In this document: one piece after another, positions 10,725 through 53,471 of the stretch
Layout of the letters: every line of letters begins with the position of its first letter
Numbering within the stretch: position 1 is the stretch's first letter
Assembly: GCA_963971425.1 (NCBI GenBank)
Contig: OZ020525.1
Coordinates: 2,666,001 to 2,730,000 of the forward strand
Direction of reading: 5' to 3'
Length of the DNA stretch: 64,000 bases
Source: Bryoerythrophyllum caledonicum
Lineage: Eukaryota; Streptophyta; Bryopsida; Pottiales; Pottiaceae
Notes under the pieces: model-generated
The model's input: only the letters and a program-made list of their open reading frames with translations
What the model was told of the DNA's origin: nothing
Database searches by the model: none
Position numbers and translations under genes: made by a program

Positions 10725-10779
10725 ATACTTTCATCTTAAGACCAAGAATATCTAGCATTATAAATGCTAAAATACCAAG

Positions 10780-12540
10780 CATTTATTGAGTCAGCGGCCA
10801 TGGCGTTTCTCGACCGGGTGTTGGCATGTTTTGAAGCCCCAGTTGAGGATTTGATAGACCACGGGCGTGAGTTCCTTGGAGCTTTCGAAGCTTTATGTAC
10901 CGAGGCTTTGATTGACCACCGTACGGGATCATCCAAATGCGGATAGTTTGACGGAGCGTGTGATTCAGATCGTGAAGCGGGGCCTACAAAAATATGGATT
11001 ATTCAAAGAGGCCATTGTGATTGGGATCTGATGATACCATGGATCGCCATGGGGTACCGATTTAGTCGGTAGGCTTTACTGGTTGCTTTCAGTCCTTATC
11101 AGTTGTTATACAAGAGGAAGCGAATTTTGCCAAATTCCGTTCGGAAAAAGTTGGCTCCGGTTGTGGATTTAGATGATCCCTAGGTGTAGGCCTAGTGTCT
11201 ATGGGATCGACCGAAGTTCTTTAAACGGTCCTTACTTATAGCCATGGAAAACTTATCATTGCTCAGTATTTTGACATTTTACGGTACGCTCATATTCGTA
11301 GCGATGCCTACTGACCTCAGCTGCAACGTTTTACCACAGCGGATTACGTTTATCTGGAGTGCAAGGTGTCCACAATGTTGGACGTTAAGGCTAGGCGCAC
11401 CATTCCATGCGTGAAGGATGTGTTGCGAAGTGACATCTTGTTTCTCGAAGGCAAGGTTGTCAATAGTGTTGGAAGCACTCTAAGAATTGTGCTATTTGCC
11501 ATTTACCCATTGATGGCTACGTTCATCCAGAGTTGGCCGCGTTCATACGGAGTTGGCCGTAGTACCAGTCAGTCTTCCATGTTTTGTGTGTGGTGAGAAG
11601 AACGGCGCGTTATCATGTTGTTTTGTGACCATTGCCAGCGTGGTTGGCATATGGCTTGCTTGACGCCGTCTCTTTCTACTCTACCGTCCGGGGATTGAAT
11701 TTGCCTTCGTTGTTGGAGGTCTTTGAGCCATGTTTCACCCAATGAAACAACTTGAACTCCTCGTGGACTTCTCACTTGTTGGTGCGTTGTTATCCAGTTG
11801 GAGTTCATGGTTTGCATTCAGGGATAGGCAACATAAAGATTGACCAAAGGATTGGCAACAGAGTTGCCCAAGGCAATTAAAGATGGGGCTTACATTGCAA
11901 CCGGCTTATCCTCTCTTTGTTACTTCTTCATATGCTTATTGATTGGACGATGGGTGACATCTTCGACTGGATGCCTACGGTTGTTGTAGCGACATCACCG
12001 TGCATTTAGTCTTGTTAGTGTTGTTTGATCCTAGTTGGATAGAGGGTCTCTTTATGTGCTAGGCGGAGCACTTGAGGGTGTACTACATATACTTGTTTTA
12101 GTATTTTTTTGTTTAGTTGATGTAGGTTAGGACTCTCGATCTGTTGTGGTTATCGATCTTTCTTTACACGATAGCTGTTACAAGACGTGGCGTTGGGCCT
12201 CTTTGCATCGTAGTGTTTTAGTGTAGATTAATTTGTTACTACTCTACAATTTTGGGGGACGTACGGCGGTGCACCGCATTCATCCATGGATGATTTTCAT
12301 CCACTTGGGATTGTGTGTGTGTGCGTATAGTGTGACACACGTCTAAAGAGAGTGATTATTCTTGTGATTTACTAGTCAATTGATTACTCTTGTGATTAAC
12401 TAGTCATTTGATTTTTCTTGTGATTTACTAGTCAATTGATTACTCTTGTGATTTACAAGTCAATTTACAACAGTGATTTAGAATATCATTTGGCAAATTC
12501 CAAGTCAATTTCTACTTCTTGAGGGTCTTACTTTTATAAA
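10780..12540 (+). mobile_element. Ty3/gypsy fossil A: 3' part (integrase end, PHD-finger-like segment, LTR)
   Basis: Broken LTR retrotransposon, 3' part only. Pieces resembling the later integrase core and the integrase C-terminal region lie at about 10,790-11,450. A short segment with Cys/His pairs in the C4HC3 spacing of a PHD finger lies at 11,569-11,720. An LTR-like segment begins with TG at 12,176. Its first 170 bp is shared with the 5' ends of fossils B (31,541) and C (53,322), so all three are one family. The copy is old and heavily interrupted (of the order of ten breaks). The outer end of its LTR is not clear, and later short tandem repeats lie within it at 12,353-12,475. It points towards the left arm of the inverted duplication. 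Confidence 0.75.
12353..12475. repeat. Tandem repeat of about 27 bp inside the LTR
   Basis: Four to five units of ACTCTTGTGATTTACTAGTC followed by AATTGATT stand in tandem. The single-copy equivalent is present in fossils B (about 31,870) and C (about 52,970, minus), so the unit was amplified in fossil A only. Confidence 0.75.
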
Positions 12541-13050: not shown

Positions 13051-13089
13051 TCACTCAAAATGTAGGCATCTCTTTTCGGTGTGTACATA

Positions 13090-27281: not shown

Positions 27282-27534
27282 TAAAAGAATTCTAGGACTC
27301 TAGAACTGTAGTTGTTTTTGAAAATCATCTACGTAACAAATACGTATATGTATACGTTACGGAGGCGGGGCTTAAACCCTAAACCCTAGAACTCCAGAAT
27401 TCCACAACAAAAATCTCAGTAAACCCACGCGGAAACGATCCACACATCCGCAGAAACGCATCAACGACTCACTCCTTGTCACAAAATTCGCCGTTCCTGA
27501 TGAGAAACCCTCCGCGATAGCTCCCGGAGATGAT

Positions 27535-29778
27535 GTGCAGGGTAAAATGGCGAGGAGACGGGCGCCTATCTGTGCTCGAAATCTCATCAAGCACGAGTTC
27601 TCGTTGCAATTAGCCAGTGTCGAGGATATCTGGAGCCTCTTCACCAAGGCACGAAGAGGATTCACTTGTAGTCCTTCTCATGCGGAAAGAGATTGTAGGT
27701 ATGTTGCGAGACTCTCACAATGTTTCAATTTGAGGTCATTTCGCGAGTTGGAAGAAGAGCCTGAAGATTTCCCCGACTCGCGAAGAGGATTTGCGTCTGT
27801 GAACGTTCGTAGTCTTGTAAAGAGTGATTTCGTTGCCAGATGTAGACCAAATTCCCGAGAGAGAGAGTCAGAAGAGGAATCGAGGAAGCCATTAGCGAGC
27901 CGGCGCCGAGGCGCAACCGTCGTGCAGCTCAAAGAGCGCGGGTTCGACGACATTATCGAGCGAGAGAAGAAGCTCTCCATCCTCCTCCGCATTAAGGACC
28001 TGATTGCGGCCGATCCCGCCCGATCCATGACCCTGCTCGACCTGGGAACGCGCAAGGACGACATTGGTCTGGATGGCAGCCACCGCCCGATCGCGTTTCT
28101 GAAGCGATTCCCGGGTGTTTTCAGGATCCACGAAACCCCCGCCGCGCCCTGGTTCCACCTCACCCCCACGGCGGAGGCGATTCTCGATGAGGAGGTTGCG
28201 ATTCGAGAGGGAATGGAGGAGGAGGTGGTTGTCAAGCTGCGCAAGCTGCTGATGATGGCGAGTGGCGGGGCGCTCCCGTTGGCGAAGATCGCGCACCTGG
28301 AGCGTTATCTGGGGTTGTTCAGGAAGGAAATTGTGTTTACTCGGCCGAGGGATTTTCGCGTTGTGGATGAGGGGGTGACGCTGGAGCTTGTGAGGTGGAA
28401 CGAGACCCTGGCGGTTACGGAAGCAGAGAGGAGGGCTCAAGAAAAACCGCTGGAATTCGAACATGGTGAGTTTCCTCCAAGCCCTAAATCCAGGTCACAG
28501 GATTGCGAAATCTCGAACTCTAAACCCTAGAATTCTTACAACGCTCTCTCACTTTATTGCAACCCCCTTGATAGGTTTTAGGGTTCAGAAACCCTCCACG
28601 TAAATCCCAAACCCTAATCTCAGGTCATATCAATCTCCACCACAAGCACACCTTACAGCACTCTCACTTAATTGCAATCTCTTTAAATCTCCATGTTCAG
28701 GGTTTAGGGTTTTAGGCTGGCTCTTGGATTAATCCTCTTCTTTGCATCTCCATGTTCAGGGTTTAGGGTTTAGGCTGGCTCCTGCATTAATCCTCTTCAC
28801 CTGATGAGCAGTTGTTTTCTCACTTTCTCACAATTTCCTTGAATCTCCAAGTTGAGGGTTTAGAATTTGCTCTGTTTTGTATAACGGCATTGGTGTTTGT
28901 TTCCTGCAGACAAACGCCATCGCCTGTCCAAGTTTGAGGAGCTGGAGTGCCCGTCGCCGTTCGAGGACGGAAGCCAGCTCCACCATCGATCCCCGCAGTT
29001 CGAGAAGCGCGCGGTTCTGGTGGTGGAGGAGCTTCTGTCGCTCACTTTGGAGAAGCGGCTCTTGGTGGACCATCTCACCCACTTCCGAAGAGAGTTCAAC
29101 TTCTCCAACAAGGTAACTCACCTCTCGCTCTCTCTTTGCTGTTAAACCCTAAACCCTGAATTCCAACAGCAAAGAGAGGGTTTGACCCTAAACCAGGTTT
29201 TAGAAAGGGTTAAACCTTAAACCCCGAACCCTAACTCCAACTTTAAGAGTTCAGGGTTTAAGGTTTCGGCCTTTCTAAAGTCGCCTAAAGAAAGGGTTTA
29301 ACCCTAAACCTGGTCTTTCTAAAGTCGCCCAAACTTTCAATAAGATAGCCCCTCTTCAGACTTCCCTTTCCTCACTCTCAACAGAGAGAGCTTGGTGGTC
29401 TCTAAGCTCAAGTCAGAATAGAGAACTTGGTGGTCTCTAAACTCAAGTCAGACCAGTTCTAACCCTAAACCCCAGTCGCATGGTGATAGCTTTTTCTTTT
29501 CATAATGTTTGCAGGTGTATGGGATGCTGATCCGCCACCCTGATTACTTTTATGTATCAAGGAAAGGCAGGCGTGACACCGTGTTCCTGAGGCGAGCGTT
29601 TGAGGAGGTTCACGCCCCTGGGAAAGCCAAGCACTACCGTCTCATCCACAAGCACCCCTTGGTGCTGGTGAAAGAGAAATTTGCCCATCTCATGGATGTG
29701 GACTACCCTCTCCAACCCAGGCCTGCTCCTCCACATGGTGTTGCAGCTCCAGCGCAGAAAACAAACACTCCTTGGTAA
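27535..29778 (+). CDS. PORR-domain organelle RNA-binding protein (3 exons)
   Basis: Exons 27,535-28,465, 28,910-29,112 and 29,515-29,778 join in frame with GT/AG introns to a 465-aa protein. The N-terminal part of about 120 residues is rich in Arg and Ser, as in organelle transit peptides. The plant organelle RNA recognition (PORR) domain runs from about residue 125 to 440: LKERGFDDIIEREKKLSILL, IAFLKRFPGVFRIHE, VVVKLRKLLMMASGG, LGLFRKEIVFTRPRDFRVVD, FEKRAVLVVEELLSLTLEKR, RRDTVFLRRAF, LIHKHPLVLVKEKF. Family members promote splicing of group II introns in chloroplasts or mitochondria. The start could also be the Met at 27,547. Both introns are full of AAACCCTAA-like motifs. It ends with TAA at 29,776. 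Confidence 0.92.
28540..28900 (+). repeat. Telomere-like motifs in PORR intron 1
   Basis: Repeated AACCCTAAA and GGGTTTAGGGTTTTAG tracts, including a near-exact duplicated block (CTCCATGTTCAGGGTTTAGG at about 28,690 and 28,749). Intron 2 (29,140-29,480) is similar. This looks like an interstitial telomere-type repeat or a telobox-rich intron. Confidence 0.65.
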
Positions 29779-31540
29779 CCCTCCCACAACCATCAAGTTA
29801 AGCAATGTGCATATATGGAGAGAACAAATATACATTCATTTTTCAGTGATATCCAATAGAAATACAATTTCAACCCAAGTGATTTCACATTTTTTGAATG
29901 AAATGTGCATTAGTTATTAGTTTTCAAAGTGTGTTGCCATGTTTAGTGGGTGGCTGCTAATAGGTACCTCCTATAAGTGCTGACCAAAAGTAAGGAGTCC
30001 TCACTAACAACACACCTCCATTTGGAGCTGAATGAGTGGTAATGGGATGGATATATTTTGATTTTATAGGTGTCGGTTATGGGTTTTGGTTGGTTACTAT
30101 GGGGTTATGTGAGTGCATTCCCTACTCATTTCCTATCAAGAGCAATGCTCCTATCATTCAGCAACTCTATCAAGCAAGTGGCATAAACCCTAAATTTGAA
30201 ATCCTAAAACCTTAAACCTGCATGTGACTTCAATTGACTTTCGTAACAAATAGAAGTGGTGCTAGGGCGGCCTTCTATTTAGAATTGTTTGAGGAGGATT
30301 CCTGAATGAGTGTAGGCCTAATGCCCGGATAGAAGTGACCAATGTATAAGTAACCTAGATGGTGTTATGTATAAGCTACCATAGTTGTAGATTTATCTAT
30401 TATTGAGTTGTCGGTTTGAAGTAAGCCCTGTAACCATTAGAATTGAACTGAAAGAGGGTAATGAAAATGAAGTGGGCATTAGAGAAAGAGAAATAAAAGT
30501 GTGTTGTTAGTGAAGGGTAATTGGTTAATATTGAATCTCACCAACGATTTGATAACTCTAAGGGCCGGTTGTTGTTCTAGCATTAGTTCTTGAATGTTAT
30601 GTTAGATTTTGATGTGATTTTATAATAAACTCAATATTTTTGTGAAAATGTCACATTTACATGTGACATTTTTAGAAATATAGTTAGCCCTGTTGATGCC
30701 TCCATTCCAAATGGGTGAGGTGAATAGTTATGTGGTGAATATTCCTCTTTGGCCACCATTATGTACATTAATAGCACTTTTAAAGTTGGCATTATAATCA
30801 TTTGTAAAAACCATCAATTATGGCATTTTCATATACCATGTGATGCTTTCACAAATATTATGATTGATGGCAAACTTTTGTATTATATCTTTATGGATGT
30901 TAGATTCCATTTCAAAATTTGGTAGATGAAAATATAAATTTTGTGTATTTGTCCAATGTTGTAGGGCACATTTTTGTCTTCCCATTTGCATGTGACATTT
31001 TCATAGATATGGTTTAACATATTAAACCTATTCATGCCTCCAACCCAAGTTGGTGATGAAAGTATTTGTACATGAATAGTACTAGAAACTCTCGTTTTGG
31101 CTAGTGTTATGCACAATGATTGTGCTTTTCAAGTTGGCATTATTATTATTTACGAATCATCATTTATGACATTTTCATAGAGCATGTGATGTTTTCACAA
31201 ATGATGTATTATTGGTTTTCTGATTTGGTTCTTTTTAAGAAATTTTCTAATGATTTATTCAAGGTCTAATGAGTTATGGACATGGACACTTTTGTTTATA
31301 GATGCTTGGGAATAAATTTATCCAATGAACACCAAAAAATAATCAAAAAATGAGTATATATCTAAAGTGATTGATTATCTAACCTTAATTGATTATCTAA
31401 CCATCAATACGTAAGGATACAACCATGATGTCATGTTTGAAAATGTACAAGTAATATTTTATTAATAGAAATAACTTGTTTTTTTCACTCTCTTAACTTG
31501 ACATGGTTATTATTCTCACGCCCATTACAAATTACCTAGT
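29779..31540. other. Intergenic region with a diverged tandem duplication
   Basis: 30,636-30,860 and 30,956-31,205 are diverged copies about 330 bp apart (landmarks ATGTGACATTTT, ATGCCTCCA, AAGTTGGCATTAT, CATGTGATG). No gene is recognised. The region lies between the PORR gene and gypsy fossil B. Confidence 0.55.
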
Positions 31541-34500
31541 TGTCACGGACGTGGCATGGAGGGCCTCTCCACATTGTAGTATTTTAGCGTAGATGAGTTT
31601 GTTACTAATCTACGGGGTTTAGGGACGTATGGTGGCGCACCGCATTCATCCGGGAATGATTTTCATCCACTTAGGCTTATTTGTGTGTGCGTATAGCGCC
31701 GCACACGTCCTTGACTTGGCGTCTTTGTCAAGTCAAGCTTTGTAAGTGAGTTTGAAAGTGTTTAGTGATTATCTTTGTTTATAAGTTATTGTTTTTTATT
31801 AGTAAAGGCTCTGGATTCTCTTGCACTGCTTGTCCTCATTGATTCTCCCTATGTGGAGTGCGAGAAGCTTGACTACTCTTGTGATTTACTAGTTATTCTC
31901 TTGACAAAGACCCTCCCACGTCCTTTCTTCAGTTTTAGAATTTCAGCTTAGGTCAGTTTGGAAATTTTTTGGATGCTTAGATTGGTGTTGTAAAGCGAGT
32001 CAGGATGGAGCCAACGCAATAAACAGCCCCCAAATCGGACAATTTTTGAGCAAGATGTGAGCATCGCAAGAATTGGAAGAAGAATAGCTACTGGACCTGA
32101 ATCGGATTCGACCTCTCTATAGGAATTTCTATCTAGTGGAAAAGAAAAAATTTAGTGGAATTTTTTTTTCTAAAACCACATTTTTGTGGTTTGTTAAAAA
32201 AAAGATTAGTGTCTAAATTTTGGAGGTATGTAACTAGGGCAATTTAACTCGGTTTTGAGTGAAAATTTTGCTTATACTTAGGGAATTTTTCCATTAATCC
32301 AATTTTGGTATTGAATTAATGTTGAACGCGTTTGTCACCCAAAGTGTGATTTTCAGTGGAAGGACTTGTGTTTGTAAACACCGCAACCGCATTAGCTCGC
32401 TACCTCCTTAGTTTAGACTTCGGGAATGACACCTTTGGATGTTTCCCTTGTGTTGTTGCAAGTTTTGCAATTAGTGACCATCCATTACAGGCATGTATGA
32501 GTGGCTTTGGTCATTTTCATTTACCGCTTTTATGTTGTTAGAGAGAGGATCCGGTTTTGATTTTTGGATTCTTGTGCGGTACCTCCTCCGTGTTGCCGGC
32601 TTGTTGCCCGTGTTTTCCGATGGCCCCATTTTGTTGTTGTCCCAAATTGTGATAGGGTACCGTGGGGGTGAAGTTGGGTTTATGGCTAGCAAGACCTTTT
32701 TATGTGGAGAGTTATGGCTGGACGTGTGCTAGTTAGAGGTAATGACCGGTGAACTATAAAATTTGGCGGTTTTATAGGTTCAGGTTGCCCGTTCGTACCT
32801 TTACCCTTTAGATAGTACCTGTAGATAGATCGCGAGGTAGTTTTGTTTATGGTGAGTACTCGGAGTCGTTATTACTGTGCCCCCCTCCCCACCACACCCC
32901 TGGAAGAGTGCTTCCACCATAGACTTTGGACCATGGTCGAATATTGATAAGACTTTTGAGCTTGTTTCAGCGTTGGATATCGACTATTGGCTTCAAGTGT
33001 GAGGCGTGGGCACGTTTGACGACATGGAGGAGGATCTCTGTCATGTCGAGCAAGATAGGTTCTCGGGACGGGTTGGGGGCATCTTTCTATCGAATTGGCA
33101 GTTCTGATTCTAGACCTAGATGAAAGAGAAGAGCGAGCGGACGTCGTGGTTCAACAATTGGTATGTGTTCAAGCTCTTGTCCTAGCATTTAGAGGTGGAG
33201 GCTCTTCAAACGTCTGGGATGCAGACCACGCAACATGTGACAGAGTTACGCCTCGTTGAAGAGTGTTGAGGCCAACGTGTGGAGTTAGTAACTGCGTTCA
33301 AAGAGAGTGCGGTTGCCCAACTCTTGACTTCCAGCGAGGAACCCAAGGTGGAAGAGGGTTATCTCTGTGAAGATTCAAAGGGCAAGGGTGTTGCCATTGT
33401 GGACAAAGTAGCTCGCATGGGGGCCATGTCCCGTTTGGCCGTAGCTACACGTGCGGCATTGATGGCGATTGGCAATCCGCTAGCCTTCAATCCTCTGGCA
33501 CAATTCATGGCGCATCTGGAGGTGTATACGGGGGATTCAGGTGTAATCAGATGCAACGCACTCAGGATTTCTACCGGGAGAAGGAAGATATCCCTCGTAT
33601 TATGTATACCCGGTTCGCACGATTGTCAGCGGAGGCTAATGATGTGTTCACTGAGCGCCATTTGGTGAAGATCTTCACTTCAAAAGTGGATAAACGGATG
33701 GTGGAGTTGATTAGTCGTCATCTTCTTTTTCAGTATCACGGGAATGTCACTTTCGCACAGGCTTTCACCGAGGTGTAGGCGTTTAATAGAGCGTTGGGCG
33801 TGAGCAAGGCCACAAATTTGGTCAAGTCGTTGTTGGAGGCTCCAAAGCCAAAGAAGCTTGCTACCGCGACCGGTAGCTCGAAGGAGGCACAACCAGAGAA
33901 GGTTGTGCATTGTTGGGCTTATGGAGAGGCAGGTCAGACTAAGGGAGACCTTATTTGCTCCAAGAAGAAGGCAACCACGGTGAAAGCTAGGCCTAAGATC
34001 GAGGTGGCCAAGCCTACAGAGAAGGTAGGGGGCAAGGAGAAGAAGGTTGTAAGATGCTCTCATTATGGCAAGTTTAGCGACAATGATGAGAAGTGTTTTT
34101 TTCTTCACCCGAAAAAGCACCCCGGGTCTTCAGCTATTGATTCAGATGTAGTGAAGACACTTCAGGCCGAGCTGACAAAGATAAAGAAGCAAATCAGTAC
34201 AATGGCCTCTTTGAAGCAAGTGGCAGACATACAGCCTCCGATGAGGGGTTAGGACTCACCTTCAACCCAAGATCACTACTTGTATGGCGCTTTGGAAGAA
34301 ATGGTGGCAGCAATTGCCACTCGTGCTCAAACTACCGCATAGTCGGTGGCACCTTCTCACTCTGTGCCAGGTAGTAGTGGTTGTCCATGCCACACGGGTT
34401 TGCCGGACCACATTGGTAAGCTACGGATACCTTATTCATTTAATATCGCGATTGCGGCTACTTCTACTGCTCCTCCCACCCGACCCTGGATTGAGCAGTT

Positions 34501-37062
34501 TCTTCCACTCCTGGAGATGCAGCACACACCTTTGCGTATAAGGTGTTGCAGTTGCCGGTATTTGCCGGTCTGAACTTTTTAACACTGGATTTTCAACCAT
34601 CTAGTGTATTCCTCTTGGCGGGTAGTATGTTGGAGGGCAAGGTGTCCATGTCGTTGTTGGAGGTGTCCATATCGTTGTTGGAGGTGTCCCAGTTGTGACG
34701 GCTCCATCCACTAAAGATGATTTGGTGGCAATGTGGGCCAAGTTGGCGAAGGAGACTATTTCCACGTTTGAGGCCAATGCCACTTCTTCACCTATGAAGT
34801 AGTCCTCCAGAGATTAGTCCTTGATCTGTGGAGTGGCTTACATGTCTGATGTTTTGGGTCAATTAGAATGGAGCAACCTAGTGTGCGTCTAAGAGCAGTA
34901 CGCTTGGTGAAAAATAACGGAGTCATGGTGGTTGGTCGCACGGACGACAACCCCACCCGAGCTACCCGCCTCCGTGTCATGTTGGACTCTGAAGTTTAGT
35001 CAATGATGATTGGCAGGCAAGTAGCCCAGGATTTGAATCTAGGCGCTTTAGACCTCGAGCCTTGCCCATTTACAATACTTATATCGGTGTAGGGCATAGA
35101 AAAGGCCATGGGATACACCCGACATCGGTTGCAATTGATGTTTGGCATGGGATTGGGTACAATATTCTCACACGTATCTCTTTAGTACGTTGTGACTGGT
35201 GCCACCAACTACGACATTCAAGTAGGTCAGCATGCGCTTTAACCAATTGGTTTGGGGTGGATAACTAGACGGAAGAGGCTTGGATTGGGCCTGGGTGGTG
35301 GTAGAAAGGAGCTCATTCCACTTGTCTTTGCAGCTAGCGCGGTGACTTCCACGACGGATGCTATGTTTGGGCGCAGTGCCTTGGCATCAAATTTGCCATG
35401 TGGTTCTACACTTTTGGAAAAGACATTTGCTTTTATGATAGGGTAGCGCAATCACATGGGCAGAGATGAGTGGAAATCCCTGCACGTCATTGCAAGGATC
35501 CACTTCCTCCATAGAGAACTCAATTGGAGCTCACTCATTGCAGTCGGGAGATTGTGGAGTCGTGGACGCTATTGATCCTCCACAGCTTTCAGTGGATTCT
35601 CCCACTCCGTTGTTGGCTGGCACTATTTAGTAGCGACTACCGAACGAGGGTATTACCCTCGTGGAGCTATTTGCTAGTATCGGTACGGGGCTCGCGACTG
35701 TGTTTGAGGCCGGGCTCCACGTACACCCGTATATTCACATGGATAGTGCCTTTGCAGCCAATCGTGCTGCTCACCATCACATTCAGCATCTTCGGGCATT
35801 GTATCCAGAGCACTTACCGTCTTTTGCTATCCGCGTGTGTTTTGGGAAGTTTCCACGCAATGTGACGTTGATCAGTGAATATGATCTGCGCCATTTAAAT
35901 CACGTGGACTTGGTGATTGCCGGATGGCCTTGCCAACGCCATTCACGGGCAGGCAATGTACGTGGCTTGGATGGTCGACGATCGGGTCTCTTTGTGGATT
36001 TTCTTAGGCTCATTCAGTGGTGAACTACCCACTAATCGACGCCACAAGGGTACATTTTTTAGAATGTACCCCCATTGGGGGATACTTAGACGAAGGTGTG
36101 TGAGGATGGAGCATACATCCATCACCTTCTTCATCCCCCTACGTTTGTAGATGTCGCAACATTGGCGTCTTACGCCCATCGACTACGTTGGATATTGGAC
36201 CAACATAGCATCATCGGCGACGCTCACCTCTGCACTTACTCAAGTGCAACGGCCCGTGCGCAGTGAGGTTGATGACAACTTGGACGACCACCGTGTTTTC
36301 ACGGAGGTCACCAAGGATGATGAGCCACCATTGATTATAGTGAACGGCGTTGGTTTCACTCAAAGGGCATTCCCACGTTGATGTGCTACTTGGGGTCTTT
36401 TGCCTTTAGAACACGCGGTCCGGGTATGGTTTAGGATTCTACTTCCGAAACTTACAAAGGGCCTTTGCCCGATGAGAAGAAATGGGTGATGGGTTTTTTG
36501 ACAGGCACCACCGTTGCACCAGACCTCTTTGAGGGCCAACGTTGTTATTTGTTGGATAAAGCCATTGACCTCAATATCCTCGTTTGGATTTGTGGCCTCT
36601 GTTTTGCCGTTCAGCGCCGTTTGAGTGACCATCCACGTGTGTCCCTCAAAGAGATTATGCGGATAGAGCCCAAGTTGTTAGCAATTTGTGGAAAGCCGGT
36701 CGAGCCTTGCACAAGCTACAACATGGGACACTTCCCCAAGCTCTTTCTATTATGGAGCATAATCGAGTTGGGCACCGAATAGCAAGGTTCCGTTGGGAGA
36801 ACGGCCTTCTATTTTGGATCTGGCCGGATGGAACTAGGCGCATAGTCCCTAGGCCAAATCAGAGGTCTTCGTTGGTACGGCAAGTACACAAAGACCTAAG
36901 ACATTTTGATGTACAATAGACTCATTTGATGTTGCGCAACCAGTACTGGTGGGTCGGCATGTATCAATTGATTGCCACGTATGTTTCTTGGTGTGAAGTA
37001 TGTGATTGGATTTGATCCAACTTCAACACCTTGTCCGATGCTTTTTCTTTGACACTTTCATG
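31541..37062 (+). mobile_element. Ty3/gypsy fossil B with a cytosine-5 DNA methyltransferase domain
   Basis: Broken LTR retrotransposon. An LTR-like 5' segment starts TGTCACGGAC at 31,541, and a leader runs to about 33,250. Gag-like pieces with a zinc-knuckle-like stretch lie at 33,279-34,250, and a retropepsin-like segment at about 34,860-35,240. A cytosine-5 methyltransferase (DNMT) domain spans about 35,640-36,640, with recognisable SAM-binding motif I, the Pro-Cys-Gln catalytic loop and the C-terminal motif IX/X region. An integrase zinc-binding (HHCC) segment lies at about 36,790-37,020, where the element ends abruptly. No reverse transcriptase or RNase H is recognisable. No 3' LTR is present. 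The copy is old, with ten or more interruptions. A short internal 21-bp tandem repeat lies at 34,630-34,690. Confidence 0.8.
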
Positions 37063-39849: not shown

Positions 39850-40440
39850 AATTCAAAAGCTTATCTATGCTTCTGAAAGATTTTATGCTTTTGCTTCAAT
39901 ACCTATATTTGATACTTTTACTTTTAGATTCTTATCATCCGATAATCATATCTATCTATCTATACACCCTAAATCATCGTACGAAGGAGCCCTCTCACCG
40001 CAATCTTGGATCAACCGACTATCCTAAACCCATATTTGATTGAACCCACCAAGCCAATCTAACCCACGCAACCAGGACACAATTGAGTTCAACCCATAGA
40101 TTCAATGGAAAAATTTTCAAATCTCGCCACCTACCATCGAAGTAAACAAATCAATTGTCTGTCTTTCTCCAAGTAAACTAACTTAAACCCAAATGACGAT
40201 CCTATGAGTGCACAATCCGCCATCGCCATTGCGTAACGCGAGCTTCCTCGCCCTCGGCTAGATATCTGGTGCGGGTCACACATCTCCTTCAACACGTACA
40301 CCTTCTTGTTCTTAGATGCTCGCGAAAGAAAGGCCAATACCAAGGTACTTTCAATATCGCCACATGGCACATTGGATTGCGTGGGAACCAATTGGATATT
40401 GGCCCCTCCTCTTTATTATATGGAGAAGTAATGTAAATCT
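39850..40440. other. R1-like fragment and unassigned sequence
   Basis: 39,850-39,935 resembles part of repeat R1. An 86-codon open stretch at 40,131-40,391 minus has no family I recognise. CTTTATTATATGGAGA near 40,415 recurs at 37,295. Confidence 0.4.
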
Positions 40441-40474
40441 TACAAAAAATTATACATATTTTCTTCCATGATCC

Positions 40475-40690
40475 ATGGCGCTATCAGTTCCTCTTGGCGG
40501 TGTGGCTTAAATACAGAAAATTTTCAATTATGTGAAAAAAAACTCTTTTGTAGTGTTTGTTTGGAAATTGAAGTCCCACGTGCACAAATCAAATTGCATT
40601 GTCGACATTGTTTATGTCAAAACTGCATTATGAATTGGGGACGAACTCCAAAAAGTAAAAGATCACAAAGCATATCATGTCCACAGAGGG
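40475..40690 (+). pseudogene. RING gene fragment (RING4, truncated)
   Basis: The ATG at 40,475 sits in the same TTCCATGATCCATGG context as RING1-3. The first six zinc ligands are present (CSVCLEIEVPRAQIKLHC, then RHCLCQNC), but homology stops at SCPQ before the last Cys. The frame continues into unrelated sequence to 40,851. It lies inside the spacer, outside the arms, so it is a separate member of the RING family. Confidence 0.7.
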
Positions 40691-41201: not shown

Positions 41202-43834
41202 TTAAAAAGAGAGCCTTGTCCTATCGACATGGCAAACGGAACTCAGGCGCTCCCTCAAAGCTTCATCGTTGCCGAGGCAGTCCACAATCTCCAACGCAGA
41301 GTGAAGAACAAAAACACCATCTCCCACGTTTCCAAGCTCAGCCACCACATCTGGGTCCCTCATATAGTCCTACATTACACACAACAAAAACCTTCTTCTC
41401 ATGTAAAATGGAACTTCATTTTAAACAGGCATTTTGAAAAGTCACCCTCTTTTTGTCTACTATTTGTTCCCTCTAACTGGTTATTGGATCAACAGAAGAG
41501 CTCGGTGGTCTTTTCATCAGCAATTCTGTTAGAATCTGTGGTGTCATGTGAGCGGTTTAGTCGAAGCACCTTCTCTGTGGTAACTAGCATGACCCTCCGA
41601 CATGGAAACCTCAACTGGAGCTGCTTGAAAACCTCGCTGATTTCTTTCAGATTCTGCAAACAAACTTGTCGCACTTATGTAAACAAAGGCGCTCCACTCT
41701 AACACTACAAAAGCCTAAACCCTGGAGACACAAAGTGCATTTCACACAGACGAAGGATTCGTTTTACAGCATAACATACCTCATTCTTGAAACTGTGATG
41801 GTCACTAAAATCCAACCGCTCAACGTGAGAAGCACCTTCCTGGAAACACCCACATCATTCATGTAGCTTCAAATCTCTTACACATTCAACCCTTAACTAA
41901 TCCCTTATCCATTCACAAGGGGATACTGCAACATAAATCAAATAGTTAGGCCATGGTAAGAACCTGCACGAGGAGAAGATCAACAGACTCGGGGCATCCA
42001 ACCGCTGAAACACAAAGAACCACAGCGTCTTTGACTTTCAGTAACGGAAACTCTGAAAGAGAGTTGCTCGAGTAGAAGCAGAGTGGCCGCATGTGACCGC
42101 TCACAACAAGCGCGCCTTTCTTCAGGAACGGCTCCAGTGTCTGTCTTATTGACTTCACCTTGTCGTCTGCCACCTGCACATCACCTCATGTTCTATCAAC
42201 AAAGGAGATGCGAACAGAAACAGAAGATGGACAAGAGCTCGTTCATACCAATTTAGAATGATGGAGAACCACCACATGTGCCCGCTGGAGCGCTCCCAGT
42301 GGCTCCCGCATTGGTCCCCGGGGTACAAGCTTCCCATTGCCCCACAACGACACCACATTGATCATCACAATCTCCAGGTCACGCTCCAATGCCCAGTGCT
42401 GCTCAATTCAAGGTCGCAGTAAGCACGCCAAATTCCAAGGCAGAATGCTCAACGAAACGACAAATACAAGACCAGCACTTGGGAGAATACGAGTCCTCAG
42501 TTTTTCACATATTGATGAAAGAATCCATGTACTTTTCTATACCTAATCATATTTACACGTAAAACATGTGGCATCTCTTTCCAAGTTCGAGATAACTGAC
42601 CTGCATTCCGTCGTCAAGAATGGCGACACCGATTTCCTCAGAGCGATCCCATGCATTGCTTCTCGCTCCACCTTGTTGTTGCAGAATGGACAGTGCTACC
42701 TTTGCGCGGTTTGAACCGACACCGAACCTCGTAGGAGTGCCTTGCAGGTGCTTTTGAAGGAGACGCACTTCATCGCCTCCTCTATAACCCTGCAAGCTGT
42801 CAACTTAGGGCAGTCTAGAAACGACACAGGCTGAGTAGAGTTCTCCTCAAGGTGCAGAGCTGGTACCCGCGAGAGGATAAGTGGGGATACGTGAGCTGCG
42901 AGGTAGTGGCGAGCCAAGTAGTCCACCATTGGGGTCTTCCCGCTCCCACCCCATGTCAAATTCCCCACGCTGATCACTGCTACTGGGAGTCTGCCACATG
43001 CACACAGGATCAGCAACAGACCACTTTCTTGCAAAGCCATGGAGATTCCAGACCACGAAACCTAGAGCAAACAATACGAGTCCTTCCAGTACACCAGGTT
43101 ATAAACTAGATGAGTGACATTGCATTGAAACATGCGCTTTACTCAAATGTATGAAACAATTCTAAATCCTAAACCCTAAACAATCAAGTATGTGCTCCAA
43201 TTGCAAACATCGGAGCTATTTGAAAACCCATCCAATAGTAGGTAACTGATGTAAGAGATCCTTGCGTTAAACATGTGTTCCAATCGAACAGGTGAAAAAA
43301 CCCTAAACAATCAAGTTCGTGCTCCAATTGCGATGGCAACTGACTTGTAGGGTCAAAAAACCAGGTGAGTATACAAATAACTCTACTTTCACCACCACCA
43401 AATTTCAACCCTGGTTTATATTTGCTATTGCCAAGGACCGTTTCTGTCCAAACACCATTGGCTCTCCAATCAATTCTATTATACTCAACTCACTACTGCT
43501 AGGATTCAGCATCAAAGTGCATACAAGAGAGCTGCTCTCTTAAGACCACCATTCCAGGCACTGAAAGAATGAAAACCCATGATCATCATGCAAGGAACGT
43601 GGAGATGAATGATGAAACATGGTACCTCGTGGGAGTGAGGATGCGGAGGTGGTACAGCAGGCCTCGCATGAGAGCGGCGAATGTGTAGAGGGTGCTGGCG
43701 ACCGAGAGCACAGGCACAAGCGACCTCTCCAGCTTTGGAAGGAGCCTGAGATCGGCGTCGTGGGTGGCTGCGATGCGCACCACTGCTTTCCGTAGCCTCT
43801 CTCCCCATCCAGGCATGGTTGCATTGGAACTCAT
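41202..43834 (-). CDS. lpxK: LpxK, tetraacyldisaccharide 4'-kinase, intact (8 exons)
   Basis: Exons 43,626-43,834, 42,867-42,990, 42,601-42,789, 42,249-42,398, 41,964-42,173, 41,780-41,839, 41,570-41,653 and 41,202-41,369 join in frame at GT/AG sites. Product: 397 aa, the usual plant LpxK length. The P-loop with its hallmark GNLTWGGSGKT is at residues 79-89, DDGMQH at 170-175, LDFSDHH at 303-309 and LVTTEKD at 337-343. The enzyme phosphorylates the 4' position of the lipid A precursor. In plants the lipid A-like pathway is mitochondrial. The start at 43,834 is the first ATG in the last unit of a telobox-rich repeated leader. The Met at 43,816 is an alternative. It is divergent to RING2 (ATG to ATG 471 bp). 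This is the only complete copy of three in the window. Confidence 0.93.
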
Positions 43835-44304
43835 AAACCCTAAACCTCTAAAACCCTAAAAACGTGGACCCAGACATGGTGGGATCGGGACTCATAAACT
43901 CTAAACCCCTAAAACCCTAAAAACCCTAAACCTCTAAAACCGTGGACCCAGACATGGTTGGATTGAGACTCATAGCCCCTGAACCTTGAAAACCATAAAC
44001 CCTAAACCCTGGACCTACAGAGGCTCAGCCTTCTATTCAAGAGTTTTTCCTGATTGAGCTTGGTGCTATCTGGATGGTGTTTTGCAACCCTCTTCCACTT
44101 TGGTCAGTACTGAAGTAAAATAACGTTAAAATAAATTTAGAAAAAAAAATTATTTTTAGTAAGTTAAAAAGTAAAAGTAAAAAAGTAACATCTTTTCTTA
44201 GAAAGGAAAAAGAATAAGTATATAAGACCTCTACGGATACAAAGGTTTCATGTTATTTTGATAAATAATTCTTACAGAATTAATATATATTTCTTCCACA
44301 ATCC
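43835..44304. promoter_or_regulatory. Shared divergent promoter region of LpxK and RING2 (right)
   Basis: The 470 bp between the two start codons contains repeated AAACCCTAA teloboxes on the LpxK side and AGTATATAAGACCT with a TATA box at 44,219-44,226 on the RING side. The left arm has the same arrangement at 15,740-16,203. Confidence 0.5.
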
Positions 44305-44793
44305 ATGGCGATATCAGCTTCTGCTTTGGCTTTAAATCTTAAGAAAGCAGAATTGTGTGGAACAAGAGTCTTTTGTGGTATTTGTTTGGAAGATGAAACC
44401 CCATATGCACATTGCAAATTGTGATGTGGACATTGCTTTTGTGAAAAGTGCATTGTGACATGGGGACAAACTCAAGAATTGGAAAGATCACTAAGCATAT
44501 CATGCCCACTTTGTAGGCAAAATATTGAAGATGAGATGACTTTTGTAATCTTCCCTCTTTCCATAGCGGACTTTTATAAGATGACTCCTAGCCAATATTT
44601 GCTAAACTTGAATGAGCGGATCAACACACACCTAGGAATAGGGCCCTCACATGGTCTGAGTATAAGATTCAATGTTTTAGACTTACCTAAGAGGGAGAGA
44701 ACCCACATAATCAATTTTTTAAATGAAATTGGCAAGTCTATCCAACAGGGCCAACTAAACCCTAGCCACCCAAGTCTTCATGTATCCGAATAA
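44305..44793 (+). pseudogene. RING2, right copy: one nonsense codon
   Basis: It reads like the intact left RING2 but codon 40 (44,422-44,424) is TGA where the left copy has CGA (Arg), a change typical of methyl-CpG decay. Zinc-ligand Cys and His codons are otherwise kept. The normal stop is also lost, so the frame runs 16 codons further, to TAA at 44,791. An internal ATG at 44,455 would give a protein lacking most of the RING. Confidence 0.85.
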
Positions 44794-45109
44794 ATTCTTT
44801 CATATTTTATTTATTGTCGACCAACATTGTTTTCAGCCATCCATTCTTTACGAATTATTTATCATATTGTAATTTGTCTAAATAAATGGTTGAAATATTT
44901 TAAGCTTTTCTTAGATAGGTATTGATTTTTGAAGTGGATGTTTTCATACTTAGTATGAGCATTTAGGGGTAATAGGAAGACAACAATTACCACCATGTTT
45001 ACATTTACACGGATGGATAATTGTAGCTACTAACATTATTAATGCTTAACAGAAGACAACAATATCATCCATATCCTCAACTTGGATGAAATATCTAGCT
45101 ACTTTCATC

Positions 45110-45600
45110 TTGAGACCAAGAAACTTAGGACAAACTATACGACTCCTTCCAATACATCAAATTTATGTTTAGTAACTCAGATGAGTGACTTTGCATTGAA
45201 ACATGGACTTTTATCAAATGTAGAAAACAATTGTAATTCCTAAATCCTAAAAAATCAATTATGTGCTCCAATTGCAAACATTTAAGCTCTATGTAAACTC
45301 ATCCGATAGTAGGTAAGTGATGTACGATCCTTGCATTAAACATGTGTTCCAATGAAAGGGGCGAAACAACCCACAACAATTGAGTTTGAGCTCCAAATGC
45401 GAAGAAAGTAAGATGGCAAGTGGCATATTGGGTTAAAAAAACCAGGTGAGTATACAAACAACTCTACTTCGAGCACCATCAAATTTCAATTATGATTGTT
45501 TATATTTGCTATTGCCAAGAACCAATTCTATCCAAACACCATTAGCTCTCCAATCAACTCCACTTCATTCAAACATACTCAACTTACTCATGCTAAAAGT
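45110..45600 (-). pseudogene. Relic of LpxK intron 1 (right arm)
   Basis: Inverted counterpart of 14,455-14,935. It aligns with intron 1 of the intact LpxK (43,050-43,550), with no exon attached. Confidence 0.75.
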
Positions 45601-45689
45601 AGAAGAAGAAAAAAAAGTATAAACCATGGACCACAAATTTATGTTCAAGATTACAATATACTTTAAAAAGAGTTTTAAAAGTGAAAGAA

Positions 45690-45775: not shown

Positions 45776-45883
45776 ACAAAAGAAGAAGTATATAAGACCT
45801 TTATGGATACAAAGGATTCATATTATCTAATATAATATATGATTCATAAAAATAAAATAAAAAATATATTTCTTCCATATTCC

Positions 45884-47460: not shown

Positions 47461-47464
47461 AATA

Positions 47465-47773: not shown

Positions 47774-50700
47774 GGGGGGTTTCACACGCGGACCAAAGGT
47801 TGAGAGGCCAAGTGCTACTTGCAATTTGATTGGTATAGAGCCTCAAAATCGGCCTTGGTCGGCCTCTCGGCTTTCACACACGGACCAAGGGTCGAGAGGC
47901 CAAGAGGTCTAAAATGCCTACAAGGCAGCACTTTTTGGAGGTTTTGACGCCAAGGGTTCGGTCCCTCGAGAGAAGTTTGAGTTTTCATTCTCGTTCGGAC
48001 CGAATTCTTGCCGAACGTTAAAGAGTTTGGTCCGCACGGGCCGTTGCACTTAAGCAAGTGCAGAGGTGAGCGTCGCCAATGATTGCCATGTTGGCTCAAA
48101 TCCAACGTGGCCGATGGGCGTAAGAGCCCAACGCCACGACATCAACAAATAAGGAGGGACCAAGAAGGTGATGGACGTATGCCCCATCCTCACGTATTGT
48201 TGTCCGTGTATCCCCTAATGGGGATAAATTCTCAAAAATGTACCTCGGTGGCGCTGATTGGTGGATAATCCATCACTGGATGAGCGTGAACAAATCTCCG
48301 AAGAGCCTTGATCGTGGATCATCCAATCCATGGCCAGTGCGCACGTAGATGTCTTTGGTAAGGCCATCCCGCAAACACCAAGTCCACCTGACGCCATTGT
48401 CGCAGATCATCCTCACTTATCAACATCACATCACGTGGCAACTTCTCAAAACACCCCTGAATGACAGAAGGTGGTAACAGCTCCGGATACAACGCTAGAA
48501 GACATTGAATGAATTGGTGAGCAACATGGTTGGCTGCAAAGCTACTATCTACGTGAATGTATCGGCATATCTTGAGCCCGACCTCTAACACAACCGCGAG
48601 CTCCGCATAGATATCGGCAAATAGCTCCACGAGGGTAATACCCTCATCCAGTGGTCGCCACTGAATAGTGCGAGCCAACAACGGAGTGGAAGAATTAAGT
48701 GAGAGATATGGAGCATCCTGGGCATCCACGATTGCCAAGCTGCGACGAGTGAGCTCCAATTGAGTCCTCCATGGAGGAGGTGGATCCTTGCAATGAAGTG
48801 CAAGGATCTCTAGTGGTCTATGCTTACGAGATTCCACTTCTCTTGACATGAAAACATATGTCTCCTCCAAAAGTGTAGAACCACGTGATAAATCGGATGC
48901 CAAGGCTCTACACCCAAATATAGCATCCGCCTTAGAAGTCAGCGCGCTAGCTGCAAAGGCAACCGGAATGAGCTCCTTTATGATGAAGTGTCTGCTCACC
49001 TACCAAGATGTCGTAGTTGGTGGCACCAGTCACAGCGCACTGAAGAGATACGTGGAAGAACAAAGGACCAAATTCCACGTCGAACAACAAGTGTAACGGA
49101 TGTTGGGTGTAGCCCATGGCCTTCTCCATGCCTTCAATCAATGTAACAATTGTAAATGAACAAGACTCGAGGTCCGAAGCACCCAAACCCAAATCTTGGG
49201 CAAGTTGCTTGCCAATCATCACTGGCTGAGCTCAAGAGTCCAACATGACATAGACGAAGGTAGCTCGGATGGGGTTGCCGTCCGTACGACCAAACAACAT
49301 AACTTATCATTGCTCACCAAGTGTACCACCCTTAGACCACATTGCGTCGCTCCTATGCCGACCGGGCCGCAAAGTCAGCCAAATAAGCCACTTCTTAGAT
49401 CAATGATTGATCCCTGGAAGACTGCTCCATAGGTGTAGAAGTGGCATTTCCAACAAACGCAGAAATAGCCTCCGCCGCCAACTTGGCCCGCATTGCCACA
49501 AAATCCTCCTTGGTGGGTGGAGCCGTTACTACTTGCAACACCTCCAACGATGGCATGGGCACCTTGCTCTTCAACATACTACCCGCATATGGAATACACT
49601 AGATGGTTGAAAATCCGGTGTTAGAAAGTCAACACTGGCAAATACCAACAACTGCAACACCTTATACGCCAAGGTGTGTGCAACATCTCCATGACTAGAA
49701 ACATCGGTGGGATTGGGGTCGGAGTAGGAGCGGCAGTAGAAGTAATTGCATCCGCGATGCAGAACGGAAGAGGTAACCAGGACTAACCAATGTGGTCCGA
49801 CAAACCTGTGTGGCGCAGACGGCCACCACTATTCGGCATAGAAGGAGAAGACGCGATTGTCTTTGCCGTAGTCTGAGCATGAGTAGCTATTGTTGCCACC
49901 ACCTCCTCTGAAACGCCATAGAAGTAGCGATCTAGGGCAAAAGGTGAGCCATGACCCCTTACCGGAGGCCGTGTATCAGCTACTTGCCTCAAAGAAGCCA
50001 TCGCGTTCATCTGCTTCTACAACTCCGTCATTTCAGCCTGGAGTGTCTTCAATACATCTGATGCAATAGCTAAAGACGGTGAACACTTCTCCAAGTGAAC
50101 AAAAAAGCAATATTGATCACTTAGCTAGTCTTGCCACAATGAGAACATATCACGGTCTCCTTTTTCTGCCCCCACTCTTGTCTGTACATTTAGCCGCCTC
50201 GATCTTGGGCTTGGCCTTCACGGTGCTTGCTTTTTTTTTCTTGGAATAGTTAGGGTCCTCCTTAGAGTGACCCACCACTTTACAAGCCCAATAATGCTCA
50301 ACATTTCTAGGTTGTCCCTCCGCCAAGCTACCAGTAGCTGTAGCAAGCTTCTTGGGCTTGGGAGCTTCCAGTAGTGACGTGACCAAATCCGTGGCCTCCC
50401 TCACGTCCAGTGCTCTATCAAGCACTTCCGCCTCGGCAAAAGCCTACACCAAAGTGGCATTACCGTGATACCAAAAAAGAAGATGAAGACTAATTAACTC
50501 CACCATCCGCTTATCCAGCTTCGATACAAAGATCTTCATCAGCCAGCGCTCCGTGAACACATCACCGGCTTCCGCTGACAATCGTGCCAACCGGGTATAC
50601 ATAGTGCGTGGGGTGCCCTCCTTCTTTTGGCGGAAATCCTGGATGCGCTACATCTGATCACACTTGAACCCCCCGTATTCCACCTCCACATGCGCCATGA

Positions 50701-53471
50701 ATTGTGCCAAGTACCGAAGACTGTTGGATTGCCAACCGCCATCAATGCTGCATGTATGGCTCCGGCCAAACGGGACATGGCTCCCATGCCAGCCCGTTCA
50801 TCCACAATGGCAACACCTTTGGCTCTACAGTCCTCACTGAGGAAACTCTCTTCCACCAAAGGCTCCTTGGTGGAAGTGGAGAGTTGGGCAACCGCACTCT
50901 TCTTAAGTGCAGTCACCAACTCCACACGCTGGCCCAGTACTCCTCAACAAGACTCACATCTCCCTCGTATTGCGCAGGCCAGCTCCCATATGTCTGAAGA
51001 GCCTTCAACTCCAAATGCTAGGGCAAGAGCTCAAACGAATATCAGCCGTTAAACCACAACGTCCGCAAGCGCTTGTCCTTCATCCAGGTCTGGAATTGGT
51101 GCTGCCAACTGGGCGGAGAGATGCCTCCAACCCATCCCGAGAACCTATCTCCCTCGACACGACGGAGATTGTCTTTCATGTTGTTAAACGTGCCCACGCT
51201 CTAGACCCGAAGCCTACGCTCGGTATCCAATACCAAAGCTGGCTCAAAAGCCTCATCGGTATCTGACCCTGACCTAAAATCTGTGGTGGTAGCACTATCC
51301 GAGTAGACAAGTGAGGGGGAGGGATAATACCGACTCTAGATACTGACCATAAACAAGCACCACCCCGGATCTTTCTAGGGGTATTATCTAAGGGGTAAGG
51401 GTATAAATAGGCAACCTGCACCAACAAAACCACCAAACTTTGTGGTTCACCGGTTATCAGCTTTGGCTAGCGGAGGTCCAACCACAAACCCCCGCATAAA
51501 AAGGTCTTGCCAGCCATGAACCCGACCTCGCCCCTACGGTACTCGTCACAATCTTGAGACAACGAGAAATAGAGCCACCCAAAAACATCGACAACTAGCC
51601 CGGAACATGGGAGAGGTACCGCAAGAATCCAGAAATCAAAACTGGATTGTCTTTCCCAACATCATAAAAGGAGAAAATGAAAATGACCAGAGCCACTAGC
51701 ACTCACTTGTAGTGGATGGTCACTAGTTGCAAAAAGTCGCAATTACATGAGGGGAACACGGAAAGTTGTCCTTCTCCAAGTCTTAAACTAAGGAAGTAGC
51801 AAACTAATGCGGTCGCGGTGTTTACAAACACAAGTCCCCTTAATGCAAATGATAAATTGGGTGACAAACACACTAGTATGCCAATTTAACACTAAAATTG
51901 GACAGATAGCGGAATGCCCTAGCTATTGGTGCAAATTTTACTCGAAACCGAGTAATAATACCCTCACAAACAACCTCTAAAGTTTAGAAACTAATCTTTT
52001 TTTCTTATTAAAAAAAACCACATAAACACGTGATTGTTTTTTGACGTTTTGAAAACTGGTAAATTTTTGTACTGATAGTCTTACGTTTTGTCCACAAACT
52101 CAAATCCGCAATCGGAATCGCAAAATAATCAATTGTGCAAAAGTTGAAAATTTGATGTTTCAACTCTAAGGATGTTCTTAAATTTGCTTCAAAACTTCAC
52201 GCTTTTAGTGTACGCGGCACGCAATTAGGTACTAGCGGACTTTCATGCTCAAGCCGTGTTTGAATGCAGCCCCTTTGCTTGCGCAAACACCATCACTCCA
52301 AGCCCGTTTGTTGATGAAACTCACAAGCAACTCATTGCCACGCTTCCTACGCCGCTACCAAGCGTCCCGAGGTCTTTGAGTCTTAAATCAGCGACTACAG
52401 GTGCACCCCCAGTGCCTCGTTCCTCGCCCTTCCTTCAATCTCGGCTGCCTAATCCTGATGACTGCTCGCCCGCGTAGACTGTGTCCCACCAATGTCCGTG
52501 CTCGCTCATGTCCAAGAGCTCTACAGCCCCCTTGCACGCAACGCCATGCCCGATCGGGCTACCCCAATCATAATCTACTCTCTGTATAGGGGTGACGCCA
52601 CGCTTGTGTCACTCTCCCTCAAATCTTGGCATCCTAAATCCCAAGTCCAGAGGCAACCCTGCCCTTACTTGTAGTCTCGATTTCCTGCGCTCGATTCTGC
52701 TGAAGAAGGATCAGCCTATGTTAAATGAAAATATGGATGTCTAACCACCGGATGAATAACTGGGAGAACCTCCCCTTTCGTAGAGACAGAAGCCTCTCAA
52801 CTCAAGATGTAGAGCCTTTAACAACTATAAATATAATTAGCACTAATTATTTACGCTTAATTTTGTAACCCATTTAGTAACTCATCATTTCCTACTCTTT
52901 TACAAACTCTCTCAATGCAAAAGCGGCAAGAAACTAGAATAATAATGGAGGTCTTTGTCAAGTGAATAACTAGTAAATCACAAGAGTAGTCAAGCGTCTT
53001 GCACTCCACGAACGGAGAATCAACGAGTGCAAGTAGTATAAGCGAGTGCAGAGCCTTTACTAATGATAAGCAATCACTTAAAAGCAAAGGTAATCATTAA
53101 ACACTCTCTAACTCACTTGCAAAGTTTGATTTTACAAAGACGTCAAGTCAAGGACGTGTGCGGCGCTATACGCACACACATACAACCCTAAGTTGATGGA
53201 AATCATCTATTGATGAATGCGGTGCACTGCCATATCTCCCTAAACCCCGTAGATTAGTAACAAACCAATCTACGGTAAAACACTACGATGCGGAGAGGCC
53301 CTCAACGCCACGTCCCGTGACAACATGAGTCTAGGTCTCTCAACTCAGTCCTTACGGCTTTCACACTACAAGGATCCAAACCCTACAAATTACACATTTT
53401 AATATTTTTTCCAACTCCAAAACTCGACCTCTTGACATAGTTTGGTCCACGGACCATGTGTGAAACCCCCC
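47774..53471. mobile_element. TIR element (GGGGGGTTTCACAC ends) split by gypsy fossil C
   Basis: GGGGGGTTTCACACGCGGAC at 47,774 faces its inverted equivalent ending at 53,471 (GTCCGTGG-type inner sequence on both sides). Only about 250 bp on the left and 150 bp on the right belong to it. The rest is the retrotransposon. It is probably a MITE of about 400 bp. The flanks TTCGTGTGA and TTTGTGCAA may be a decayed 9-bp duplication. Confidence 0.6.
48030..53322 (-). mobile_element. Ty3/gypsy fossil C with a cytosine-5 DNA methyltransferase domain
   Basis: Broken LTR retrotransposon on the minus strand, same family as A and B. An LTR-like segment starts at 53,322 and is followed at about 51,400-51,850 by a leader shared with fossil B (32,340-32,820). 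Gag-like pieces lie at 50,150-50,925, a protease-like segment at about 48,950-49,330, and the methyltransferase segment at about 48,080-48,850. The element ends there, without integrase or 3' LTR. Order and spacing repeat those of B, so protease followed directly by methyltransferase is the family arrangement. A GC-rich block at 52,250-52,730 has no counterpart in B. Old, with ten or more interruptions. Confidence 0.78.

Follow-up and report, generated by a model that had tools for sequence, protein, structure and literature searches.

Fossil copies of a plant Ty3/gypsy retrotransposon family with a C5-cytosine methyltransferase domain

Host genes and fossil copies in the window

The window, i.e., the whole analysed stretch of 64,000 nucleotides, contains a host gene for a protein with a plant organelle RNA recognition (PORR) domain (27376..28527, plus strand; PF11955, 7e-41). 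PORR proteins are described as acting on plant organelle RNA (PMC10226603). Judged from this domain the host is a plant, with a land plant more likely than a streptophyte alga. RING-finger repeats, an F-box gene, and LpxK-matching fragments are present in the window as well. An inverted duplication of 4.5 kb with 93.5% identity (13488-17906 and 42132-46634) holds RING-finger repeats together with an LpxK-like fragment. Diverged multi-copy repeats, some of them with RING-finger matches, are clustered at 13050-15930, 40431-40685, and 44250-47464, and a minisatellite with a 9-base unit, one frame of which is open as Lys-Glu-Val repeats, is situated at 45646-45789.

Three retroelement copies, referred to as fossils A, B, and C, were delimited by comparison with contig CADCWO010000201.1 (hereafter L006), an intact relative from another genome. 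Fossil B extends on the plus strand from its 5' LTR start to the integrase zinc finger (31538..37035; blastn versus L006). The LTR start (31538..31910) begins TGTCACGG and is 76% identical to L006 7054-7426. It is followed by gag with a zinc-knuckle region at 32883..34291 (3e-71 and 9e-114 with gag pieces from L006 in tblastn), the aspartic protease and a linker at 34871..35627 (tblastn of the L006 protease-linker piece, 1.5e-71), a C5-cytosine methyltransferase (DNMT) domain at 35634..36641, and the integrase zinc-finger region at 36660..37035 (86% nucleotide identity to L006 5137-5512; tblastn 4e-54). Within the latter region, the piece 36920-37012 matches Integrase_H2C2 in Pfam (2.7e-7); the neighbouring piece 36629-36916 has no Pfam match on its own. 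The stretch 36642..36659 is the junction of an internal deletion, at which 1906 bases of L006 (3231-5136, i.e., the end of the first long frame, the stop, reverse transcriptase (RT), and RNase H) are without counterpart. The DNMT domain of fossil B adjoins the integrase because of this deletion, whereas RT and RNase H lie between the two in L006.

In the DNMT domain of fossil B, the open piece 35634-36020 is matched by Pfam DNA_methylase (PF00145) above the curated cut-off (5.8e-9), by TIGR00675 of NCBIfam below the cut-off of that model (3.7e-8), and by phrog_116 of PHROGs (1e-12, residues 3-128); the domain as a whole was recovered by tblastn of the L006 DNMT. Motifs I (35667-35690), IV (35919-35954), VI (36057-36083), VIII (36168-36204), IX (36474-36497), and X (36549-36587) are recognisable in canonical order across frameshifts and stops. 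Motif IV reads AGWPCQ and motif VI carries a stop. The domain is thus decayed but complete, and motif I, the Pro-Cys-Gln loop, and the IX/X region are present behind the protease, as a preceding reading of the sequence alone (the sequence-only reading) had proposed.

Fossil C is located on the minus strand (48033..53322; blastn versus L006), with its 5' LTR start at 53322, and is cut off inside the DNMT domain at 48033. The 5' LTR (52885..53322) is 77% identical to L006 7057-7496, and gag (49909..51368; tblastn 7e-60 and 3e-95), protease and linker (48664..49406; 3e-86), and the DNMT domain with motifs I to VIII (48036..48663) follow in the same order as in fossil B. In tblastn, the L006 DNMT aligns with 73% identity at 48663-48340 and with 67% at 48338-48036 (joint E 4e-76). 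About the first 62% of the domain is retained and it ends before motifs IX/X; motif I is damaged, the catalytic Cys of motif IV (48372-48339) is changed to Tyr, motif VI is present, and motif VIII contains a stop. The sequence-only reading had the domain of fossil C in the same place as in fossil B, which holds, and at about 48,080-48,850, which has to be shifted to 48663-48036, since 48664-48850 belongs to the linker. It had also proposed a Pfam DNA_methylase search of the separate fragments. This succeeded for fossil B only: none of the fossil C pieces submitted had a methyltransferase match in Pfam, NCBIfam, or PHROGs, and its domain was recognised through L006. Fossils B and C align colinearly for about 4.1 kb with 74.5% identity. 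Their 5' flanking DNA differs, and they therefore look like separate insertions.

Fossil A (10776-12340, plus strand), unmentioned in the sequence-only reading, represents the integrase-PHD-LTR end of the same family. It comprises the integrase core and C-terminal part at 10776..11401 (tblastn 6e-67), a PHD-finger region at the polyprotein end at 11411..11752 (tblastn 6e-22; the corresponding L006 region matches PHD with 4.3e-10), and the start of the 3' LTR at 12176..12340 (blastn versus L006). Directly upstream, a 35-base inverted copy of the sequence preceding the 3' LTR is found at 10691-10725, and beside it a 120-base palindrome at 10511-10632; both may point to a rearranged or nested copy.

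All four elements, fossils A to C and L006, share TGT(C/T)AC as the first bases of the LTR, and the LTR start at the 3' end of A points the same way as those at the 5' ends of B and C. As no copy has both ends, no target-site duplication is readable. Neither a primer binding site (PBS) nor a polypurine tract was identified; in L006, inspection by eye next to the LTR (7057-8587) gave no clear candidate, which is unusual for a gypsy element. In a first Pfam run on ten stop-to-stop pieces as they stand, DNA_methylase matched one (35634-36020). Among 108 open pieces of at least 28 amino acids from B (plus strand) and C (minus strand), Pfam yielded a single DNA_methylase match, that of B, a single Integrase_H2C2 match, and no reverse transcriptase (RVT) match. 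None of 81 larger open pieces from elsewhere in the window, chosen from 193 of at least 75 amino acids, matched a retroelement family at 0.01; these include fossil A, which is too broken for such a match. Taken together, the three fossils represent a single plant family of Ty3/gypsy LTR retrotransposons, and all of them are dead.

An intact relative and the layout of the family

An alignment combining B and C with a phage enzyme served as query against prokaryote genome contigs. Only 2 of the 29 pattern matches were relatives, namely a Streptomyces enzyme and L006, which shares 78% identity with the complete 129-residue piece of fossil B. L006 has a length of 9285 bases and is filed under an uncultured Synechococcales, i.e., cyanobacterial, metagenome-assembled genome (MAG). 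Its ends are identical over 127 bases, a pattern that circular assembly of a repeat with a single LTR would produce. At least two further contigs of the same MAG (C16 and C123) look like gypsy-type polyproteins when read by eye, and L006 is for this reason taken as eukaryotic contamination of the cyanobacterial bin; at least three contigs of the MAG (L006, L028, and L029, two of them read by eye) were noted as gypsy-type retroelements. A sample of 386 genomes from the same phylum as the MAG gave one match at a threshold of 1e-30, the MAG itself. No relative was found in IMG/VR with the open frame of C, the integrase and gag pieces of B, or the DNMT domain and zinc finger of L006. Queries with the DNMT piece of B or with either of two alignments retrieved only methyltransferases on viral contigs, with 23-30% identity to L006 in the aligned rows.

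Read as a circle, L006 has the order gag-protease-DNMT-[UAG CAA UCA]-RT-RNaseH-integrase-PHD finger, with the DNMT domain open and in frame with the protease. Except for gag, which has no Pfam match and was assigned by position and zinc knuckles, the parts are supported by Asp_protease_2 (7.8e-4, below cut-off), DNA_methylase (6.8e-12), RVT_1 (4.3e-31), RT_RNaseH (1.8e-38), Integrase_H2C2 (9.6e-18), rve (1.2e-13), and PHD (4.3e-10). The best PDB match of the RT is the Ty3 RT (2.4e-51), and protease, RT, RNase H, and integrase follow each other as in Ty3/gypsy elements, with the DNMT domain between protease and RT. The Ty3/gypsy assignment made from the sequence alone is borne out by this RT and by the integrase zinc finger of fossil B. 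Its placement of the DNMT domain after the protease holds; in L006, RT and RNase H separate this domain from the integrase. A family order protease-DNMT-integrase without RT was dropped, as L006 has RT and RNase H.

The L006 DNMT matches window positions 35634-36641 with 5.4e-132 and 407 bits, and its match to fossil C is split into two pieces of 156 and 138 bits. For comparison, 50 Markov resamples of the window gave 27.3 bits at most, and masking of both domains in the window left no match above 24.6 bits. The claim that the domain is a family trait and not one host-gene insertion stands, given the same place in B, C, and L006.

The two long frames of L006, one of 1162 codons that is open at the contig start and one of 1047 codons, are separated by an in-frame TAG CAA TCA. 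The type I read-through consensus is given as UAG_CAR_YYA, and pomovirus RNA2 as UAG-CAA-UYA (PMC3542737). The L006 stop agrees with this consensus, in a single contig. TAG followed by CARYYA occurs at 1 of 1713 TAG triplets in the window (any frame, both strands) and at 2 of 190 in L006, one of which is this stop. Two adenosines before the stop are named as a stimulator in PMC3542737, but the two bases at this position of L006 are AG. Since the region is absent from fossils A, B, and C, the read-through reading rests on one assembled contig, from whose sequence the stop is likely a programmed read-through site.

Class of the methyltransferase, selection, and decay

The set of C5 methyltransferase motifs is whole in L006, decayed in B, and reduced to I-VIII with the Cys lost in C. 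Against PDB, the L006 DNMT scored best with DNMT3A (36.8 bits), followed by HaeIII (27.8), HhaI (27.2), the plant DRM 4onj (18.5), and DRM2 (16.4). Chains named DNMT1 or CMT were absent from this search at E<=1, and no DNMT2-named chain was among the matches listed (49 in the PDB search and 47 in the profile search). The piece of fossil B alone leaves the classes unseparated (4onj 23.1 bits, HaeIII 22.4, HhaI 21.7, and DNMT3C 16.0 in PDB). A profile search that included the window fragments ranked DNMT3C/3A/3B first. The motif order is canonical as in DNMT3 and unlike the rearranged order of DRM. Motif IV, however, reads PCQ in B and L006 versus PCN in the aligned DNMT3 and DRM chains, and the domain is therefore filed as DNMT3-like and not as a DNMT3 member. 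By similarity scores and profile ranking we call it DNMT3-like.

Structure prediction lends this classification weak support. A first model was useless (mean pLDDT 30.1). The second was weak as well (mean pLDDT 39.6, pTM 0.41), and its input alignment seems to misplace motif I of the phage rows. In Foldseek, the best 50 of 722 matches to the second model (E<=10) were all DNMT3A/3B, with E values of 1e-6 to 3e-5 and a TM of about 0.3, so that the predicted fold may resemble DNMT3 structures.

For the analysis of selection, changes in which B and C agree against L006, i.e., changes that arose while at least one lineage was alive, were separated from changes private to B or C, which mostly represent decay. 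In the DNMT domain, the comparison covers L006 2217-2848, where all three copies exist. Shared changes comprise 22 synonymous and 3 nonsynonymous ones (ratio to neutral expectation 0.06, p 5e-9) and are distributed as 2, 2, and 21 over codon positions 1, 2, and 3 (p 5e-7). Private changes comprise 42 synonymous and 90 nonsynonymous ones (ratio 0.96). These ratios of 0.06 and 0.96 indicate purifying selection followed by neutral decay of the copies. For the other segments, shared synonymous to nonsynonymous changes amount to 61:34 in gag (0.23), 20:21 between gag and protease (0.48), 22:9 in the protease (0.19), and 10:11 in the linker (0.48; alone not significant, p 0.1). Of all five segments, the DNMT domain has the lowest ratio. 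Altogether, shared changes versus L006 were observed at 25 of 630 DNMT sites and at 214 of 2749 sites over gag to DNMT. A comparison of B with C alone gives no codon periodicity in the DNMT domain (21, 27, 28; p 0.57) and by itself would argue against selection; it would be explained by private neutral decay dominating that comparison, and the three-way test separates both components. By this test the DNMT domain was under purifying selection before B and C died.

From gag to DNMT, fossil B has accumulated 20 in-frame stops and 11 length changes, and fossil C 10 in-frame stops and 11 length changes, one of them its truncation; both copies are dead. Taking L006 as reference, which is not the ancestor of B and C, its CpGs are changed by transition more often than its GpCs in fossil B (66 changed and 90 kept versus 50 and 149, p 9e-4) as well as in fossil C (54 and 74 versus 49 and 133, p 0.007). 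This is suggestive of methylated fossils, as in any silenced plant transposon, and does not imply self-methylation.

Relation to known elements and possible role of the domain

The precedents that the sequence-only reading named for methyltransferase-bearing retrotransposons, in an alga and in dinoflagellates, are real (PMC5890265). In Klebsormidium nitens, DNMT3-related domains with Ka/Ks < 0.2 are reported inside a gypsy polyprotein (de Mendoza et al. 2018, PMC5890265). This KnitGypsy-Dnmt3, the closest published case, shares with the present family the LTR/gypsy type, a DNMT3-related, non-rearranged domain in the polyprotein, and purifying selection (Ka/Ks < 0.2 versus a comparable 0.06 here). 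It differs by DIRS-like repeats, according to a figure legend, versus direct LTR starts here, pieced together from different copies, and, as far as known, by its host. The terms PHD and readthrough are absent from the main text of PMC5890265, with which layouts are compared by description only. In dinoflagellates, SymbioDIRS-Dnmt3 and SymbioLINE-Dnmt are likewise retrotransposons with a C5 DNMT, the DIRS type belonging to the DNMT3 clade with de novo CG methylation, but they represent other classes (tyrosine recombinase or LINE) and independent acquisitions (PMC5890265). A further report, citing PMC5890265, places DNMT3 members inside LTR (there "Copia") and DIRS elements of streptophytes and dinoflagellates (PMC12344493).

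Plant and animal DNMT3 agree with the domain in the best PDB matches, the weakly modelled fold (best 50 of 722), and the motif order (for plants PMC6453930), and differ by PCN in place of PCQ. Plant DNMT3 in addition carries DUF3444, which is not among the Pfam matches of L006. The PHD finger of the family stands at the C-terminal end of the polyprotein. Chromoviruses, which belong to Ty3/gypsy, have a chromodomain after the integrase, i.e., a domain of the chromatin-reader type at the same end; a PHD finger replaces it here, and a DNMT domain precedes the RT.

Methylase-bearing transposons are stated to be absent from land plants in PMC6338049. No land-plant element with a DNMT was found in open-licence papers, mostly at the level of titles and abstract beginnings, and the parts available of PMC8226279, PMC10508981, and PMC9033089 contain nothing on such elements. 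The kind of element is thus already known; the further plant host, probably a land plant, the PHD finger, and the position of the DNMT domain ahead of a likely read-through stop are new, and LTRs in direct orientation are a further difference, relative to a published layout that is known by description only.

We consider it probable that the layout of the family, the selection on the DNMT domain, read-through, self-methylation of the cDNA, and PHD targeting belong to one explanation. UAG CAA UCA would serve as a programmed read-through site, with Gag-protease-DNMT as the abundant product and the RT-integrase-PHD extension as the rare one. The DNMT would ride in the particle at a Gag-like dose, and its target for de novo methylation would be the double-stranded cDNA of the element itself, no later than at integration. 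New copies would thus be born methylated, and host maintenance methylation would keep them quiet, low in harm, and tolerated. The PHD finger on the integrase may help to choose the chromatin for landing, a link suggested by the name of the domain only. According to PMC5890265, some retrotransposon DNMTs methylate CG sites de novo, and the paper puts forward the idea that such elements methylate their own cDNA; it also states that other retrotransposons manage without a DNMT and that no DNA methylation was obtained in yeast with the LINE-type DNMT that was tested. It is tempting to go further and to speculate on a land-plant Ty3/gypsy family with a self-contained epigenetic kit, in which a DNMT at Gag dose, owing to its place upstream of the read-through stop, methylates the cDNA inside the particle, the PHD finger steers to matching chromatin, and copies arrive silent, but this stronger version is tentative and we would rather doubt it.

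Two other roles of the domain appear unlikely, each to about the same degree. The DNMT might act in trans on the host genome or on rival transposons, diverting or flooding the methylation system in favour of the element. Its position before the stop means that it would be made in quantity, and effects on the host methylome are discussed for Symbiodinium (PMC5890265), but a domain inside the Gag-protease polyprotein would be expected in particles. The same tie to the particle would suit a domain that acts on RNA (genomic RNA, primer tRNA, or an RNA-DNA hybrid) or that serves the particle without catalysis, as a structural or nucleic-acid-binding part, and RNA methylation has been raised for the LINE type (PMC5890265). 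This role is opposed by the best matches, which are DNMT3 DNA methyltransferases with no DNMT2-named chain among those listed, and by the PCQ, ENV, and SAM motifs, which are kept in L006 (PCQ also in B) under strong constraint.

Doubts of another kind concern the origin of the domain and of the family. That the domain is no family trait at all, due to a chance insertion of a host DNMT gene or fragment or to chance similarity, would agree with the missing direct family-model match of C, but we give it hardly any credence in view of the shared place in B, C, and L006, the open frame joined to the protease in L006, the 407 bits versus at most 27.3 in 50 resamples, the purifying selection, and the different 5' flanks. 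A recent horizontal transfer between an alga or another soil organism and the plant has a modest chance of being correct as opposed to a resident land-plant family. The shared changes of B and C versus L006 are few (25 of 630 DNMT sites; 214 of 2749 from gag to DNMT), and Klebsormidium, a bearer of such elements, is an inhabitant of soil crusts. As its isolate name AVDCRST suggests, L006 may have been binned from desert soil crust, a habitat said in PMC7901476 to have little moss or lichen. On the other hand, the hosts of L006 and of the fossils could be close relatives.

If the host is a land plant, the statement of absence as it stands in PMC6338049 would be wrong. L006 provides a testable object, in which the DNMT domain precedes a likely read-through stop and the integrase carries a PHD finger. 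Transposons are normally the targets of DNA methylation, a relation that is reversed where an element retains a methyltransferase of its own under strong selection.
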